DNA from: Alphaproteobacteria bacterium
Lineage (GTDB): Bacteria > Pseudomonadota > Alphaproteobacteria > Micropepsales > Micropepsaceae
Length of the DNA: 64,000 bases
Direction of reading: 5' to 3'
Assembly: GCA_947474565.1 (NCBI GenBank)
Contig: CANJIS010000002.1
Coordinates: 1-64,000 of the forward strand
Part shown: positions 5,295-42,767 of the stretch, piece after piece
Layout of the letters: every line of letters starts with the position of its first letter
Numbering within the stretch: position 1 is the stretch's first letter
Notes under the pieces: generated by a model
Seen by the model: the letters and a program-made list of their open reading frames with translations, nothing else
Databases searched by the model: none
Told to the model about the DNA's origin: nothing
Translations under genes and position numbers: made by a program

Positions 5295-6374
5295 TCAGGT
5301 CTTTGGTTTTAACCGGGTTACGTGGCCCATTTTGCGGCCGAGTTTGGCTTCCTGCTTGCCATATAGATGCAGCGCGCCGCTTTTGGCGAGGCTTTCCCAG
5401 GCATCGGCTTCGGCACCGATGATATTTTCCATCACCGCATCGGCATGACGGCTGGCATCACCCAGCGGCCAGCCGGCCACGGCGCGGATATGCTGTTCGA
5501 ACTGCGAGCATTGGCAGGCTTCGATGGTCCAATGGCCGGAATTGTGCACCCGGGGCGCGATTTCATTGACCAGAAGCGATCCGTCTTTGGTCACAAACAA
5601 TTCCACCGCCAGCACGCCGATATAGTCCAGTGCCTCGGCGATTTTTCGCGCCATCGCCTTGGCTTCTTCATTTTGGGCCCTGGTCAGTCGGCCCGGCACG
5701 GTGGAGCGGCGCAGGATATGGTTCTCATGCTCATTCTCCGGCGGATCGTAAGCGGCAAAAGAACCATCGGCGCCGCGCGCCGCAATCACCGAAGCTTCAA
5801 AGGAAAAATCGATCAGGCCTTCCAGAATGGCGGGCGCATTTTTGAAATTGTCGAAGGCGCTGGCTGCCTGATCGGCGCTGGTGACTTTGGCCTGGCCCTT
5901 GCCGTCATAGCCGAAGCGGCGGGTTTTCAGGATGCCACCGCCGTTCAATTTTGAAAACGCAGCGCGGGCCTGGTCGGCACTGGTGACATCGAAAAAGGGC
6001 GCGGTGGCGAGGCCCAACGACGCGACGAACGTTTTTTCGATAAAACGATCCTGGGTCTGGCTGAGCGCCTTGGCGCCGGGATGGACCGGCTTCAAGGCGG
6101 ACAGAAATTCGATGGTGGCGGACGGAATATTCTCAAATTCAAACGTGATGACGTCGCAGATTTCGGCAAAGCCCCGCAGCATGTTCTGGTCTTCGTACGA
6201 CGCAGCCACCTGGAGCGGTGTCACCTGAAACGCGGGGGCGTGGTTCTCGTCATTATAGATGCAGGTCTTCAGGCCCAGCCTGCTCGCGGCCAGCGCCAGC
6301 ATGCGGCCCAACTGGCCGCCGCCGATAATGCCGATCACGCCGCCGGGTTTGACCGGTGCATCCAAAGTTTTCAT
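5295..6374 (-). CDS. purK: 5-(carboxyamino)imidazole ribonucleotide synthase
   Basis: A 359-residue ATP-grasp enzyme that carboxylates AIR with bicarbonate and ATP to N5-CAIR in purine synthesis. The N-terminal PurK motif GIIGGGQLGRMLALAA is clear, followed by the ITFEFENIP segment, the ATP-grasp lysine region ILKTRRFGYDGKGQ (about residues 150-163) and the metal-binding NEIAPRVHNSGHWTIEAC (about 267-284). It lies 13 bp downstream of purE, forming a purEK operon. Length and motifs are normal. Confidence 0.95.
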   Translation of the reverse strand: MKTLDAPVKPGGVIGIIGGGQLGRMLALAASRLGLKTCIYNDENHAPAFQVTPLQVAASYEDQNMLRGFAEICDVITFEFENIPSATIEFLSALKPVHPGAKALSQTQDRFIEKTFVASLGLATAPFFDVTSADQARAAFSKLNGGGILKTRRFGYDGKGQAKVTSADQAASAFDNFKNAPAILEGLIDFSFEASVIAARGADGSFAAYDPPENEHENHILRRSTVPGRLTRAQNEEAKAMARKIAEALDYIGVLAVELFVTKDGSLLVNEIAPRVHNSGHWTIEACQCSQFEQHIRAVAGWPLGDASRHADAVMENIIGAEADAWESLAKSGALHLYGKQEAKLGRKMGHVTRLKPKT

Positions 6375-30429: not shown

Positions 30430-30458
30430 AAATGTAATTCGCGCAGCGAATTACATTT
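30430..30458. terminator. Perfect 13-bp inverted repeat overlapping the lpdA stop codon
   Basis: AAATGTAATTCGC-GCA-GCGAATTACATTT. The lpdA stop (30451-30453) lies in one arm. It lacks a U-run in either direction, so it may be a processing/stability hairpin or a weak bidirectional terminator. Confidence 0.6.
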
Positions 30459-31854
30459 GCATGGTCCAGCCTTCAACACCCATGGACGCCTGACGCACGG
30501 CTTCGCTCAAGGTCGGATGGGAATGGCAGGTGCGGGCGATATCTTCCGAAGACGCGCCGAATTCCATCGCCAGCACCACTTCTGCCAGCAGGTTGCCGGC
30601 TTCCGGCCCGATAATGGCGCAGCCCAGCACCTTGTCAGTCTTGGCGTCGGCCAGGATTTTCACAAAACCGTCCGTGGCCATGATGGTCTTGGCGCGGGCA
30701 TTGGCGGTGAAGGGAAACTTGCCGACCTTGTAAGCCACGCCTTCGGCCTTGAGGTCTTCTTCTGATTTCCCCACCACGGCAACTTCGGGGAAGGTGTAGA
30801 TCACCGAAGGAATGGCATCGTAATTCACATGACCCGCCTTGCCGGCGATCAGTTCGGCGCAGGCCACCGCTTCGTCTTCGGCTTTGTGCGCCAGCATCGG
30901 GCCTTCGCGGCAATCGCCGACGGCATAGATGCCCATCACATTGCTGCGGTAATGCTTGTCGGTGATGACACGGCCGCGTTTGTCCAGCTGCACGCCGACA
31001 CCGTCCAGGCCGAGATTGTCGGTGTAGGGACGCCGGCCGATACAGACCAGCATGACATCAGCTTCGATTGTGCTTTTGCTGCCGCCCGCCGCCGCTTCGA
31101 CCGTCACGGCGAGACCGGTCTTGGTTTTTTCGACGCCGGTGACCTTGGTGGAAAGCTGGAAGGTCATGCCCTGCTTGGTGAGAATGCGCTGAAAGGCCTT
31201 GGCCACTTCCAGGTCGATGCCCGGCGTGACGCGATCCAGGAATTCCACGACATGGACTTCGCTGCCCAGCCGTTTCCACACCGAACCTAATTCCAAGCCG
31301 ATCACGCCCGCGCCCACCACCAGCAGCTTCTTGGGCACTGACGTCAGCGACAGCGCGCCGGTAGAAGACACGATTTGTTTTTCGTCGATGGTTACGCCCG
31401 GCAAGGGCGCGATGTCGGAGCCGGTGGCAATGATGATGTGCTTGGCGGTGAGGCTGCGGACCTTGCCATCCGGGGTTTTCACTTCGACTTTGCCGGGAGC
31501 CAGAATGCGGCCCTCGCCGACAATGCCTTCGACCTTGTTCTTCTTGAACAGGAATTCGACGCCCTTGGTGAGCTCACTCACCACCTTCGTCTTCTGCGCC
31601 ATCATGGCGGGCAGATCGAGTTCGATCTTGGCCTTGATGCCAAGCTTGGCGAAATCATTGTGCGCTTCATGGAAGCGCTCGCTGGCATGCAGCAGCGCCT
31701 TGGAAGGAATGCAGCCGACATTCAGGCAGGTGCCGCCGAACGCGCCACGCTTGTCCACGCAGGCGGCACTGAGGCCGAGCTGGCCCAACCGGATGGCGGC
31801 GTTATAGCCGCCGGGGCCGCCGCCAATGACAATCGCGTCAAAAGAATCCGCCAT
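30451..31854 (-). CDS. lpdA: Dihydrolipoyl dehydrogenase (E3)
   Basis: A 467-residue FAD disulphide oxidoreductase, the E3 component of 2-oxo-acid dehydrogenase complexes. FAD motif [17 protein letters not shown], redox-active [16 protein letters not shown], the NAD motif [33 protein letters not shown] and the C-terminal catalytic His-Glu [11 protein letters not shown] are all present. No E1/E2 genes lie in the window, though in many alphaproteobacteria lpdA follows odhAB. It is probably the last gene of an operon extending to the right; however, the next upstream gene is a degraded kinase, so it may have its own promoter. Confidence 0.96.
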
Positions 31855-31954: not shown

Positions 31955-32756
31955 TCAGGCCGGCGCCGCTTCCGGCTTCCTGGCCGGGGCCTCGTCCTTG
32001 TGGGCCGGGTCGGGGAAGACCAGCGACACCACCGTGCCCTGGCCCTCTTTCGAGGTCACAGAGGCCACGCCGCCCAGCTGGGCGCCAAAGGTGCGGATCA
32101 GGCGCGAACCCACGCTCTTGCCCTTCTCATCCATGCGGAAACCCACGCCGTCATCGGCGATGGCGAGCGTGCCGTCGAAACTGCCGTCCGGCTTGTGCAG
32201 CGACACCTGGGAGCCGATCACTTTGAGGCCGGTGGCCCGGCTGGTGAGCAGCGTTCCAACAATCAGCGTGTCGCTTTTGCGCGCGCCCTGAAACTGAGGC
32301 TGTGCGCTGATATTGATGCCTTTGGCAAGCGGCAGCGCCGAGCAGACGATAGTGCCGTCAGCGGTCGCCCGCGACAGGTTGGTGAAATAACTCACTCCGA
32401 TCATGGCGTCGGACAGGATGGTGTCGCAATTGCCGGTCATGGCGCGGACATCGGCAATGCTGCCCACCGCGCGCGTGATCTGTTCGCCGGAGACAAAGAC
32501 GCTCTGATAATCCTCGGCGGCGGCGCGGGCAGATTGGCTGAGCTGGGCGCGCACATCGCCGACGTCGCGCTGCATCCGCCCGGCCGCCCTGGAAAATACT
32601 GACCACGACAATGGGGATAAGCGCGATAGTAACGATCAGGAGAAGCCGGCGGCGAAGCGTGCTCCAACCATGGGGCAGGGCTTCAGGCGCAGGAATCTCG
32701 TGAACGCTATTTCGGGCGGCGTTTTCCACCTGGAGCCCCGGTATCGGGCGTGGCAA
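31955..32756 (-). pseudogene. General-stress sensor histidine kinase remnant, frameshifted and internally deleted
   Basis: The N-terminal part (from ATG 32756) gives a cytoplasmic stub and a membrane helix (RRRLLLIVTIALIPIVVVSIFQG). Near 32575-32592 the frame shifts; the periplasmic sensor-like part continues in the next frame (RMQRDVGDVRAQLSQSARAAAEDYQSV ... SALPLAKGINISAQPQFQ, in parts). Near HKPDGSFDGTLAI it jumps directly into an HATPase G1 box (ADDGVGF) and the end of the ATPase domain ([21 protein letters not shown]). The second membrane helix and the HWE/HisKA_2 phospho-His region are absent, so no kinase is expected. Position after ecfG matches the usual cluster of PhyR-activating kinases. 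Confidence 0.75.
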
Positions 32757-33337
32757 GCCTGTCTAATTGCGCCATGATTTTACGTGCGGCGTCCCCTCCA
32801 GCCGAGCGCGTAACATCGGCCAGCGTATCATTGCCGTCCAATATTTCTATCAGCGCCTTGCGGGCGCGCGCCACGCGGCTTTTGACCGTGCCGACCGCGC
32901 ATTTGCAGATTCCCGCCGCGTCTTCATAAGAAAAGCCGCCCGCGCCGACCAGAATCAGGGCTTCGCGTTGCTCATCGGACAAGACGCGCAGGGCGCGCAC
33001 CGTGTCAGAGAGCTGGGCGGAGAACACTTGATCTTCGCCGCCGCATGGAATGCGTTCGGCCGCTTCCTGATCCCACGGCGCCTGACGCCAGGCGCGCCGG
33101 CGATCGGAATAGAATTGATTGCGCAGGATGGTGAACAGCCAGGCCTTCAGATTCGTGCCGGGGATAAAGGTGGCACGGCTTTGCCAAGCCTTCACCAGCG
33201 TCTCCTGGGCAAGGTTCATCGGCATTTTCCTGATTGCCGGTCAGCGAGCGGGCAAAGGCGCTCAAAAAAGGGACCAGCGCCAGCAGCTAGGTTTTGAACT
33301 CGCCATCCTCGGGACGGTCATTGGTGCGGTTGTTCAT
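32707..33337 (-). pseudogene. ecfG: EcfG sigma factor gene with an in-frame TAG and a 1-base frameshift
   Basis: From ATG 33337 the frame reads MNNRTNDRPEDGEFKT, then TAG (33287-33289), then LLALVPFLSAFARSLTGNQENAD, which is the start of EcfG region sigma2. At 33215-33216 an extra base (plus-strand TT where one T would keep the frame) moves the rest, NLAQETLVKAWQSR, into another frame that stays open to 32707. Sigma4 is intact (QREALILVGAGGFSYEDAA ... CAVGTVKSRVARARK). A start at about 33225 would give a protein lacking most of sigma2.1, unlikely to work. It is preceded 20 bp upstream by nepR, as in intact loci. Confidence 0.85.
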
Positions 33338-33357
33338 TTGGGGAGCGGGGGCCGGCA

Positions 33358-33567
33358 TTACGACACCTTTCTTTCCGCCTTTGGAGCCTTCCGCTTCGTC
33401 GATCTTGCGATCAGGTCCATAAAGTCATCGGGGACGGGCTCCTGGGCCACGTCGTCGTACATCCGGCGCAATTCGCGCCCGATAGCCCGTTGGCGGGCAC
33501 GGATGGCGCGCGCCTTTTCGTTAGGCTTTTCCTCGTTCGACACGGTCGTTTCCCATTGCTGCGTCAT
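33358..33567 (-). CDS. nepR: NepR anti-sigma factor
   Basis: A 69-residue protein whose core KARAIRARQRAIGRELRRMYDDVAQEPVPDDFMDLIARS (in parts) matches NepR, which binds EcfG and is captured by phosphorylated PhyR. Both helices around the conserved RELRRM..V..EPVPDDF motif are complete, so nepR appears functional. A GGAAC-N16-CGTT promoter lies about 90 bp upstream. It is the only core regulator of this locus without a visible lesion. Confidence 0.88.
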   Translation of the reverse strand: MTQQWETTVSNEEKPNEKARAIRARQRAIGRELRRMYDDVAQEPVPDDFMDLIARSTKRKAPKAERKVS

Positions 33568-33658: not shown

Positions 33659-33683
33659 AACGCCCCCCTTTTGGAAAGGTTCC
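33659..33683 (-). promoter_or_regulatory. EcfG-type promoter for nepR-ecfG
   Basis: On the minus strand GGAAC is followed by 16 bases and CGTT, the alphaproteobacterial general-stress promoter consensus. It is divergent from the phyR promoter. Confidence 0.75.
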
Positions 33684-33692
33684 GGTTATTAT

Positions 33693-33717
33693 GGAACTTT
33701 TTCGGCTGGCGTCAGTT
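33693..33717 (+). promoter_or_regulatory. EcfG-type promoter for phyR
   Basis: GGAAC-N17-GTT with the start codon about 40 bases downstream and AAGGAG as ribosome site. The spacing to the final TT is the same as at the nepR site. Confidence 0.65.
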
Positions 33718-33756
33718 CCCAATTCGCGCTTTCCTACTTCCAAGGAGCCTTTTCTC

Positions 33757-34422
33757 ATGAGCATGACGCAAACCCTTGCGCCGCATCTGCCCTATCTGCG
33801 CCGCTATGCCCGCGCCCTGACCGGGTCGCAGCAATCGGGAGATGCCCATGTCCGGGCCGCTTTGCAGGCCCTTTTGACCGGGGATGAATCCCTGACCGAG
33901 GGGGTACCCCCCCGGGTCGGCCTTTACCGGCTTTTCCATGCCATCTGGCAGAGCGGGGCCGAGCATTATGACGAGGCCAGCGAACCCGCCTCCATCGGCG
34001 CCAAAAGCCCGGAAGCCCAGAAGACCATCGACAGCCAATTGGCCAGCCGGGTGATGATCATCGAGGGCGAACCGATTATCGCCATGGACCTGGAAAACCT
34101 GGTGACGGAGCTGGGCCACAAGGTGGTGGCGGTGGCTTCCACCAAGGACGAGGCGGTCGCCAAGGCGCATTCTGAGCGGCCCGGCCTGGTTCTGGCCGAC
34201 ATCAACCTGGGCGAAGGCCGCTCAGGTATCGATGCGGTGAGCGAGATTCTGGCGGCCTTCGATATTCCGGTGATTTTCATCACCGCCTATCCGGAAAAGC
34301 TGCTCACCGGCGAGCGGCCGGAACCCACCTATCTGATCGCCAAGCCTTTCCTGCCGGAAACCGTGCAGGCCACGGTGGGCCAGGCGCTGTTCTTCCATCC
34401 GGTGGCGAAACAGGCTGCATAA
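33757..34422 (+). CDS. phyR: PhyR-like response regulator lacking most of its sigma4-like region
   Basis: A 221-residue protein: an N-terminal sigma2-like part (LAPHLPYLRRYARALTGSQQ) and a C-terminal receiver with phospho-acceptor Asp148 (LADINLG), Thr176 (FITAYPE) and Lys196 (AKPF). PhyR proteins are usually about 265 residues; the region normally carrying sigma4 (a segment like LTPLSRQALLLT...EGF) is absent, and the sequence runs from LYRLFHAIWQS through a short linker into EAQKTIDSQLASRVMIIE. In addition the receiver acidic pair reads EGE (residues 103-105) where PhyR has EDE. The missing part is needed to bind NepR, so this protein is probably unable to release EcfG. The frame is open, so it may still be made. 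Confidence 0.85.
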   Translation: MSMTQTLAPHLPYLRRYARALTGSQQSGDAHVRAALQALLTGDESLTEGVPPRVGLYRLFHAIWQSGAEHYDEASEPASIGAKSPEAQKTIDSQLASRVMIIEGEPIIAMDLENLVTELGHKVVAVASTKDEAVAKAHSERPGLVLADINLGEGRSGIDAVSEILAAFDIPVIFITAYPEKLLTGERPEPTYLIAKPFLPETVQATVGQALFFHPVAKQAA

Positions 34423-34475
34423 CAAGCCTTATTTCCCAATTGTGCGTTTGATGCTTGTGCGTTTTGGAGATTGTC

Positions 34476-34841
34476 ATGGCTGCCAGGAAAAAAAATTCCG
34501 TGTCCACGGTTGATACCCGCCTCGCCGCGTTGCGCGAGGATTTTGCAGCACTGCAGGCTGACCTGAAGGGTCTGGCCGGTGATGTCGGTGCTGCCGCCTC
34601 GGAACGCGGCAAGATCGCGCTGCGCGGCGCGGAAGATGTTGCCGACCGCGCCATGCGGCTGGCGGAAGAAGCGGCCCGCGAAGCCAAGGTGGCGGCGGGC
34701 GAATTTCGCGATGATGCCGAGGAATGGGCTCAGGAAAATGCCGAGACGCTGCGCGTCCAGGTGCGTGAGAAGCCCATCACCTCGCTTCTGATCGCCGGCG
34801 GCATCGGCGCTTTTCTGGGCGCGATTTTCCTTCGCCGTTGA
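34476..34841 (+). CDS. DUF883/ElaB-type membrane-anchored coiled-coil protein
   Basis: A 121-residue protein with a long charged amphipathic helix (residues about 15-95, rich in Ala/Glu/Arg) and one C-terminal membrane helix with glycines (SLLIAGGIGAFLGAIFL) ending in RR. This is the layout of ElaB/YqjD/DUF883 proteins, inner-membrane stress or stationary-phase proteins in enterobacteria, some of which bind ribosomes. The next gene resembles the YqjE-type partner. Its place next to phyR suggests a stress-regulon member. Confidence 0.75.
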   Translation: MAARKKNSVSTVDTRLAALREDFAALQADLKGLAGDVGAAASERGKIALRGAEDVADRAMRLAEEAAREAKVAAGEFRDDAEEWAQENAETLRVQVREKPITSLLIAGGIGAFLGAIFLRR

Positions 34842-34896: not shown

Positions 34897-35238
34897 ATGT
34901 TCGCGCGTCTGAGCGCAAAGGCGATGCTATTGGCGGCTCTGGCCGCCATGGTGTTCTTTGGCATTGGCCTTGTCGGGCTGGCAACTGCCACCTGGCTTGC
35001 GACCCAATTCGGCGTTGCGGGCGGCTATCTGATGGCCGGCGGACTGCTGATCCTGATCCCAATCCTGTGGATACTTTTGATGGCGGCCTCGCGGCCGCGA
35101 AAGAAGCCGGAAGAGAAAGATTTCACCACCATCCTGTTCACTGCCATGGCGCGGGAAGCGCCCTGGGTCGCGGTGCTGGGCGCCGGCCTGGTCGGGGTGG
35201 CCAACCTGTTCCTGAGCCGCAACAAGAACAAAAAATGA
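34897..35238 (+). CDS. Membrane protein, YqjE/holin-like
   Basis: A 113-residue protein with two to three hydrophobic segments (about residues 10-35, 42-62, 85-105) and a charged loop (SRPRKKPEEKDFTT) between. It follows the ElaB-like gene with a 55-bp gap, as YqjE follows YqjD in enterobacteria, but sequence similarity is too low for a firm name. Confidence 0.55.
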   Translation: MFARLSAKAMLLAALAAMVFFGIGLVGLATATWLATQFGVAGGYLMAGGLLILIPILWILLMAASRPRKKPEEKDFTTILFTAMAREAPWVAVLGAGLVGVANLFLSRNKNKK

Positions 35239-35257
35239 CGTCGCCCCAGCAGGGCCG

Positions 35258-35282
35258 GGAACTTTCACGTCGTCGCCGTGTT
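35258..35282 (+). promoter_or_regulatory. EcfG-type promoter for the DUF1328 gene
   Basis: GGAAC-N17-GTT, ending 23 bases before the ATG of the DUF1328 gene, which has a GACGGAGGAAAG ribosome site. Confidence 0.6.
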
Positions 35283-35305
35283 TTTCCTCCTGACGGAGGA
35301 AAGTC

Positions 35306-35458
35306 ATGCTTGGTTGGGCACTTACGTTTCTGATCCTGGCGCTGGTCGCTGGCTATATGGGCTTTTTCGGCCTGGCGGGCCTTGCGGCCACCATCGCCAA
35401 ATTGCTGTTGATCGTCAGCGCATTTTCCGGTGCGCTAGGCGGGCGTCCGCCCATCTAA
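35306..35458 (+). CDS. DUF1328 family small membrane protein
   Basis: A 50-residue protein [20 protein letters not shown]..., the typical DUF1328 opening, with two membrane helices and a short tail ending GGRPPI. These small proteins are widespread and often part of stress regulons; the GGAAC-N17-GTT promoter just upstream supports that here. Confidence 0.85.
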
Positions 35459-35470
35459 GAGGTGGTTCCC

Positions 35471-35617
35471 ATGCGTCTGCCCGCTCCCATTTTGGAACAT
35501 CCCATCGAAGCGATGATCGCCCGCCTGTTGCTGGTGGCGTTGTTGTTTGTTTCCGCCGATCCGCAGCCTGCCGCGGCCCCAGCGGTGAAGGTCACAGCCG
35601 TCGCCGAAAAAATGTGA
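35471..35617 (+). CDS. Small hydrophobic protein after the DUF1328 gene
   Basis: A 48-residue protein, MRLPAPILEHPIEAMIARLL..., with one hydrophobic helix (about residues 13-28) followed by an Ala/Pro-rich tail. It lies 12 bp after the DUF1328 stop with AAGAGGTGG ahead of the ATG, so it should be co-transcribed. No family recognised. Confidence 0.5.
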   Translation: MRLPAPILEHPIEAMIARLLLVALLFVSADPQPAAAPAVKVTAVAEKM

Positions 35618-35635
35618 AAATTTTGGGGGTCCCCG

Positions 35636-35660
35636 GGAACGAACGTTTGGGCTCCCGGTT
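35636..35660 (+). promoter_or_regulatory. EcfG-type promoter without a gene
   Basis: GGAAC-N17-GTT located 11 bases before the left 61-bp repeat. No coding sequence follows in the expected distance; the repeat-bounded segment begins instead. Confidence 0.45.
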
Positions 35661-35670
35661 ATTATCAACG

Positions 35671-35731
35671 AGCGGACGTCTGATCCGGAACGCCCCCGGC
35701 CCCTTCGACAGCCCGCCTCGGGTGTCCGCTC
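35671..35731. repeat. 61-bp direct repeat, left copy
   Basis: AGCGGACGTCTGATCCGGAA ... GGTGTCCGCTC. The ends (GAGCGGAC/GTCCGCTC) are inverted repeats of each other. The copy at 39375-39435 has the same 61 bases with one difference. The two flank a 3.6-kb segment with a broken integrase. Confidence 0.9.
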
Positions 35732-35843
35732 AATCTTTCCCAATATATATATGCATTATTGGGATGTTCTGTCCCCAAGCGTCCATTGATGTCCGCCCTA
35801 ATCCGCCTATCATTTGTAGGATAGTTTGTGGGAAGGATTTGGC

Positions 35844-36106
35844 ATGGGACACGCACGCGAAAAGCTCAATGCCCTGACGGTAGAGCGGATTTCCAAGAAA
35901 CCCGGTCTGCATAACGACGGAGGCGGTCTTTGCCTTCGTGTGACGTCGCCCACAGCCCGGTCATGGGTGCTGCGCTACATGCTGGACGGCAAAGCCCGCG
36001 AAATGGGCATGGGAGCCTACCCAGACACATCCCTTGCCGACGCCCGCCTCATCGCCTCTGAAGCCCGTAAGCTTAAGGCCCAAGGCAAGGATCCTATTGC
36101 CGTGCG
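35844..36106 (+). pseudogene. Tyrosine recombinase (P4-type integrase) N-terminal fragment
   Basis: About 87 codons match the DUF4102 arm-binding domain of P4-like integrases: LNALTVERISKKPGLHNDGGGLCLRV, SWVLRYMLDGKAREMGMGAYPDTSLADAR (in parts) and LKAQGKDPIAVR. Normal enzymes are about 400 residues with the catalytic RHRHY domain; here similarity ends at about 36106, where a Sel1-protein fragment on the opposite strand begins. The gene is therefore a stump that can no longer recombine DNA. Confidence 0.8.
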
Positions 36107-36381
36107 TAATTCACTACATAGTCTTGCGCTACGCCAAGACCATCCTGATACATAGTGCCTAGCCACCACTGCGCCACGGCATCGCCCCGCGCCACCAATG
36201 CAGGAAGCAGTCTGAGTTGTGTGGTGTAATCCTTGCGACGGTTAGCAGCAAAAATCGCATCCCAAGGATCAAACACCTTAGCCTGTGCGGGCTTAGGTTT
36301 CGACGTCTGAGCCACAGCCACACCACCACATCCCAGCGTGAGCGTTATGGCGAGCAGAGCTGATGTGAGCGAGCGGTTCAT
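36094..36381 (-). pseudogene. Sel1-repeat secreted protein, C-terminally truncated
   Basis: A 95-codon frame: a signal peptide (SLTSALLAITLTLGCGGVAVAQ), a linker, and the first Sel1-like repeat (AVAQWWLGTMYQDGLGVAQDYV). It stops soon after entering sequence shared with the truncated integrase, so further repeats are missing. It may be made as a short secreted peptide, but it looks like the product of a deletion joining two genes tail to tail. Confidence 0.6.
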
Positions 36382-42341: not shown

Positions 42342-42572
42342 CTATTCTGCCGCATGGTCGGCCGCGTGGGCCGGCATGCGGGCTGTCAGTTCATCAATTA
42401 CGGTCAGAATTTGCGGCTTGAGCGGTTCGGCGTCCGGATCAGCGAGCCAGGCATGGAGGATCTCCAGCCTTTCGCCATCAGCAAAGCGGCGGTCGCGCAT
42501 CACATCACCGGGCAGGCGATAGAAGCGCGCCGGTTTCAACTTGATGTCTTCGAGCAGCTTTTTCTTAGCCAT
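42342..42572 (-). CDS. Small soluble protein, 76 aa
   Basis: Begins MAKKKLLEDIKLKPARFYRL, with PGDVMRDRRFADGERLEILHAWLADPDA following and an Ala/His-rich end. There is no membrane segment. The central motif (RF.DGERLEIL.AW) suggests a short helical domain seen in other small alphaproteobacterial proteins, but no function is known to me. An ATG one codon earlier is possible. Confidence 0.55.
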   Translation of the reverse strand: MAKKKLLEDIKLKPARFYRLPGDVMRDRRFADGERLEILHAWLADPDAEPLKPQILTVIDELTARMPAHAADHAAE

Positions 42573-42584
42573 CAACGCACCCGG

Positions 42585-42737
42585 TCAAACACATCCCATC
42601 AGTGCCAGAACCAGCACAATCACCAGCACCAGACCCAGGCCACCCGAGGGGTAGTAACCCCAGTCACGGCTATGCGGCCAAGACGGCCAGGCGCCCAGAA
42701 GAAGCAGAAGCAAAACGATGATTAAAATAGTTCCCAT
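42585..42737 (-). CDS. DUF3309 family small membrane protein
   Basis: A 50-residue protein MGTILIIVLLLLLLGAWPSW..., with the Trp/Tyr/Gly-rich middle (WGYYPSGGLG) and a second helix, the DUF3309 pattern. These proteins are common in stress regulons. The ribosome site GAAGGAAA and a GGAAC-N17-GTT promoter lie upstream. Confidence 0.85.
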   Translation of the reverse strand: MGTILIIVLLLLLLGAWPSWPHSRDWGYYPSGGLGLVLVIVLVLALMGCV

Positions 42738-42767
42738 GGAAATTTCCTTCTTCAATTCTGGTTTGTG

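Follow-up and report, generated by a model that had tools for sequence, protein, structure and literature searches.

A master stress sigma factor has been lost before, in Escherichia coli: rpoS loss-of-function there is explained by a trade-off between stress and nutrition. The E. coli factor belongs to another sigma family, and in the genus described here it is the whole cascade that decays between species. According to PMC3892343, essentially every free-living alphaproteobacterium has the general stress response (GSR). Rhodobacter sphaeroides retains a GSR locus (RSP_1274) with a reduced general role; according to an excerpt of PMC5830050 its PhyR defends against membrane stress, whereas the genes described below are broken. 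The kind of event is already known, and its repetition inside one genus is the point of interest here; among the titles listed in a literature search, none reported repeated GSR loss of this kind.

The GSR locus of the window

We analysed a stretch of 64,000 nucleotides (the window) from G000, a small-genome environmental alphaproteobacterium whose record comprises 39 contigs with a stated completeness of 99.84%. Titles of related records name palsa and groundwater samples, and other related records are presumably of lake origin. Most of the named relatives are metagenome-assembled genomes (MAGs). G009 and the isolate RH-23may17-509 served as reference relatives for alignments, and 39 related loci were collected, 35 of which were used for a survey of open frames.

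The window shares with the canonical PhyR–NepR–EcfG GSR the order kinase–ecfG–nepR with a divergent phyR, the families PF18557, PF22029 and sigma70 regions 2 and 4, and a GGAAC-N16-CGTT promoter, and intact relatives have a PhyK-like kinase. Unlike the canonical system, the window holds no full-length EcfG, complete PhyR or kinase core. It carries the canonical kinase–ecfG–nepR/phyR set with all four genes damaged. Seven lesions were found across the four adjacent genes, two in ecfG and five in its neighbours, so that every gene of the module is affected. The features are as follows.

30451–31854, minus strand: lpd-like gene, by eye a dihydrolipoyl dehydrogenase; an intact syntenic flank and tree marker
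31955–32729, minus strand: remnant of a PhyK-like HisKA_2/HWE sensor kinase, which has gained one base near 32585 and lost 993 bp at about 32159
32707–33358, minus strand: ecfG pseudogene (GSR ECF sigma factor), from frame analysis, tblastn and DNA alignment
33215–33216, minus strand: one extra base (frameshift) in ecfG, from DNA alignment with relatives
33287–33289, minus strand: in-frame TAG in ecfG, where 18 of 20 relatives encode Glu
33358–33567, minus strand: nepR (anti-sigma), still open but damaged, with one base missing at 33411/33412 and one extra near 33370
33659–33683, minus strand: intact EcfG-type promoter GGAAC-N16-CGTT upstream of nepR–ecfG, by sequence match
33757–34422, plus strand: phyR (anti-anti-sigma response regulator), 221 aa, with a 44-codon in-frame deletion at 34014/34015 and D146G
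34455–34841, plus strand: small conserved ORF, intact syntenic flank

The small ORF at the right flank, which we take to be DUF883-like, had no Pfam match.

A stop codon and a frameshift in ecfG

The list of ORFs by itself contains just a 172-aa remainder of ecfG, which begins at an internal ATG (33225) and in which region 2 is missing its N-terminal part. In the minus-strand frame that starts with the ATG at 33358, the translation reads ...RPEDGEFKT-stop-LLALVPFLSAFARSLTGNQENAD, with the stop at 33287–33289, and the segment NLAQETLVKAW..., which runs to the stop at 32707, is readable solely in another frame. EcfG of G009 used as a tblastn query gave a single stop-free frame in 35 of 35 related loci but two frames in the window, with the junction at 33215/33216. 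All 20 relatives have a sense codon at the position of the TAG (Glu in 18, Asp and Gly in one each). These results confirm the in-frame TAG and the extra base at 33215–33216 reported in the first-pass annotation, the latter both by DNA alignment and by the split of the tblastn match. The interval of 32707–33337 given there for ecfG holds at the stop and is slightly short at the other end, because the start is most likely 33358 rather than the second in-frame ATG at 33337. EcfG proteins match sigma70 regions 2 and 4; these two regions are not in one open frame in the window, where linkage of ecfG to nepR and phyR is present. Full-length EcfG is thus predicted to be abolished by the stop and the frameshift.

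Damage to the kinase, nepR and phyR

The five lesions in neighbouring genes go beyond the first-pass annotation, which had left the meaning of the ecfG lesions open. The 993-bp deletion in the kinase sits between the near-identical repeats CTCGCCATC and CTGGCCATC and takes out the HisKA_2 core; HisKA_2 is absent from the remnant, which therefore no longer combines HisKA_2 with an ATPase domain in a single frame. The intact kinase of G009 contains HisKA_2 and HATPase, and its best model is PhyK, with a score below the curated cut-off of that model. In nepR, the stretch between the missing and the extra base reads out of frame, which alters the C-terminal stretch while the ORF is kept; the PF18557 match covers positions 1–30 of 35.

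The phyR deletion removed 44 codons (132 bp) between SPE and AQK, and with them the sigma4-like domain. PF22233, which represents this domain, is present in PhyR of G015 and absent from window PhyR, which matches PF22029 and the receiver and hence lacks one of the three domains (sigma2-like, sigma4-like and receiver). The D146G change (G009 numbering) lies in the receiver and affects an Asp that is invariant in 20 relatives; we take this residue to be part of the metal-binding acidic pocket of the receiver. Structures of full-length PhyR relatives have been solved (3n0r, 4g97).

In the 35 related loci, nepR was in one stop-free frame in 35 and phyR in 34; a kinase match was present in 28, of which 27 had one such frame. 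The kinase stop is in locus L115, where it corresponds to residue 10 in the reading of G009 and probably precedes the gene's own start. The phyR break is in G014 (L111, around 5329–5348), at a run of nine C with one C too many, and could be an error or a further loss of PhyR.

The GGAAC-N16-CGTT motif, which we assume to be the EcfG target, precedes nepR with the same spacing in 20 of the 20 relatives examined, and the letters of the spacer vary. A genome-wide search for GGAAC-N15-19-CGTT gave 65 sites compared to 163 in a reversed control, an uninformative count. A near-palindromic GGAAC-N16-AGTTCC at 33693–33719, between nepR and phyR, is also found in RH-23may17-509, and one of its boxes is lost in G009. 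This element could serve both directions.

Decay of the complete module and its age

The locus shows several disabling changes without counterpart in relatives, as in a decaying operon. We are confident that the complete canonical module has genuinely, and probably recently, been pseudogenised. The stop and the frameshift would leave the cell with no full-length EcfG sigma factor, the kinase would lack its HisKA_2 core, PhyR would lack the receiver Asp as well as the sigma4-like domain, which belongs to the region that docks NepR, and the C-terminal stretch of NepR would be abnormal. The partner switch from kinase through PhyR~P and NepR to EcfG should fail, because EcfG, PhyR and the kinase are incomplete and the C-terminus of NepR is altered. 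We infer that all GSR remnants are non-functional. For annotation, ecfG, the kinase and phyR of the window should be flagged as broken and nepR as altered.

The surviving codons of ecfG gave dN/dS values of 0.11 against G009 and 0.10 against RH-23may17-509, compared to 0.06–0.09 in six close relatives and 0.12–0.22 in six more distant ones. The corresponding values for the remainder of phyR were 0.08 and 0.06, which are not raised. As the ecfG values are just slightly raised and those of phyR are not, decay would be recent or the remnants partly constrained. It looks as if selection acted along most of the G000 branch; the intact promoter and the apparent constraint on the remaining codons indicate that the loss is probably recent, which is a weak dating. 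Against full decay, nepR and phyR remain open and the promoter is unbroken. Moreover, neither long deletion shifts the frame and the two nepR indels compensate each other, a combination expected by chance roughly 1 time in 18, and phyR and nepR could have been kept open for a reason.

Repeated losses in the genus

The same lpd locus has decayed in at least two other lineages. In G015, G006 and G068, different deletions removed ecfG and nepR. G015 has a complete PhyR ORF and a C-terminal kinase fragment with one stop, PhyR is the sole remaining GSR gene in G068, and G006 retains the last 52 PhyR residues together with a kinase fragment that is split over two frames. The sequence separating these two (L185, 8996–9094) resembles a mobile-element remnant by eye and is unmatched to GSR genes; the loss in G006 may have been driven by such an element. 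In G083 (L191, 6751–7461), PhyR lacks 24 residues of the sigma4 region with the same AQK right-hand junction, and ecfG, nepR and the kinase are open. The G065 locus was left out of the count of losses because its contig breaks off within the kinase fragment that it shows.

The lpd tree contained 37 rows; G065 and ten outer rows were set aside and the other 26 counted. Rows were treated as intact when EcfG, NepR and PhyR matches were found, which includes G083 and G014; the kinase was checked in some rows. The four decayed loci (G000, G015, G006 and G068) require four changes among the 26 rows. Approximately unbiased (AU) tests rejected single clades of G000 with G015 (p = 3.3e-4), of G000 with G006 and G068 (p = 1.1e-9) and of G015 with G006 and G068 (p = 7.1e-7). 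Clades of G006 with G068 (p = 0.22) and of G065 with G015 (p = 0.094) were not rejected, and therefore the losses within each of these pairs may be shared. As the tests reject three groupings but not G006 with G068, at least three of the four losses are independent on this tree, barring regain of intact clusters by transfer.

NepR was not found in 9 of the 51 genomes of the genus that are at least 90% complete, nor in 14 of 60 when no completeness limit was applied. Genome size was associated with NepR absence among the 51 genomes (Mann–Whitney p = 0.038; 0.010 with G000 added; 0.002 with G083 added as well), and genomes of up to 2.5 Mb differed from larger ones (Fisher p = 0.010, G000 counted as damaged and G083 not). 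The link between small genome size and GSR loss is suggestive, because the threshold was picked post hoc and species are non-independent; against it, NepR and a full-length PhyR match are both present in G089 (2.2 Mb) and G088 (2.6 Mb). A relaxed need for the GSR, perhaps strongest in the small-genome members, is the likeliest reading. The lineage of the window would no longer need the GSR, whether through a small genome, relaxed selection or a trade-off between growth and stress. A genus with repeated GSR loss, including a species apparently in mid-decay beside intact relatives, constitutes a natural series that could show at what stage a master stress response can be dispensed with, and the sequence in which its parts disappear.

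A second EcfG-like gene in G000

A search of the G000 genome found a single NepR, at the window locus, and no PhyR elsewhere. The first-pass annotation had proposed looking for a second ecfG, and one was found on another contig.

Contig C5, 113164–113784: EcfG2, second EcfG-like gene, 206 aa, open, with sigma2 and sigma4 matches

EcfG2 is 55% identical to EcfG of G009. Its neighbour is an ORF that is GroEL-like by eye, and no NepR or PhyR match lies beside it on C5. In 72% of 200 bootstrap trees it is placed on one side of the tree together with seven further second EcfG copies of the genus, on a long branch whose placement is insecure. At E 1e-55, matches to EcfG2 were obtained in 4 of 386 class-sampled genomes, all from the same genus.

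A take-over by EcfG2 in G000 is possible: as a stress sigma factor independent of PhyR and NepR, it would have made the canonical module redundant and let it decay. This is a cause for the decay and overlaps with the pseudogenisation inferred above. The open frame and both sigma matches of EcfG2 are consistent with such a role. In the relevant part of PMC3892343, the secondary EcfG of R. etli is described as acting largely independently of the canonical one, and work on C. crescentus and Sphingomonas cited there found no NepR–EcfG2 interaction. On the other hand, the stress-sigma activity of this long-branched, insecurely placed protein is putative, and an EcfG2 query at E 1e-45 gave no match in G006, G015 or G068, all without NepR, which argues that replacement is not required for loss. 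We consider replacement by EcfG2 rather unlikely as the cause. An extension, in which the GSR was rewired as well as lost, is more doubtful still: here EcfG2, free of NepR and PhyR, would run the remaining regulon of G000, including the intact nepR promoter, and the short PhyR proteins of G000 and G083 would be kept for another role.

Sequencing error and recoding

The stop and indels might also be artefacts of a metagenome-type assembly. The G000 record may be a binned assembly, as suggested by its 39 contigs and by the many MAGs among its named relatives, and the one-base break in the C run of G014 phyR could be such an artefact. The first-pass annotation argued that a single sequencing error can hardly account for both ecfG lesions. 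This view gains support from the damage to the neighbouring genes, since deletions of 993 and 132 bp are not of the base-calling type. The extra bases in ecfG and the kinase are outside long homopolymers, and the high stated completeness likewise speaks against a faulty assembly.

For a survey of the flanks, stop-to-stop stretches of at least 120 aa were taken from four relatives (949 in all) and matched to the window. Among the 45 best-matched window stretches, 31 (28,635 bp) were clean and 14 were flagged. Three flagged stretches are the GSR genes, ten were inspected and one weak match was left over. None of the ten had a lesion in its coding part; the flags came from stops or second frames before the start, or from antisense or out-of-frame matches. 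The flag at 34912–35729 is explained by plus-strand ORFs conserved in G009. The weak match at 42526–42758 (82 bits, two frames) is Q/N-rich and looks non-coding. The small lesions cluster in one locus of about 2.5 kb. Sequencing error as the sole cause was rejected because the deletions are long and the flanks are clean where checked, and we regard an explanation by assembly or base-calling error as very improbable.

Recoding, in which programmed frameshifting and readthrough of the TAG would make EcfG, accounts for the EcfG similarity on both sides of each lesion and is nevertheless hardly credible, as none of the 35 related loci has a comparable break (a recoding site would not be conserved), TAG is an ordinary stop that ends 9 of 36 conserved window stretches in a crude script count at stretch ends, and the kinase and phyR deletions are left unexplained. 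Nonsense suppression, put forward for checking in the first pass, found no support from the same count, and it would leave the frameshift uncured.

About 1.4 kb from phyR, the plus strand carries a 109-aa ORF (35826–36155) whose sole match is Arm-DNA-bind_3 (PF13356). This ORF is likely a fragment of a tyrosine integrase.
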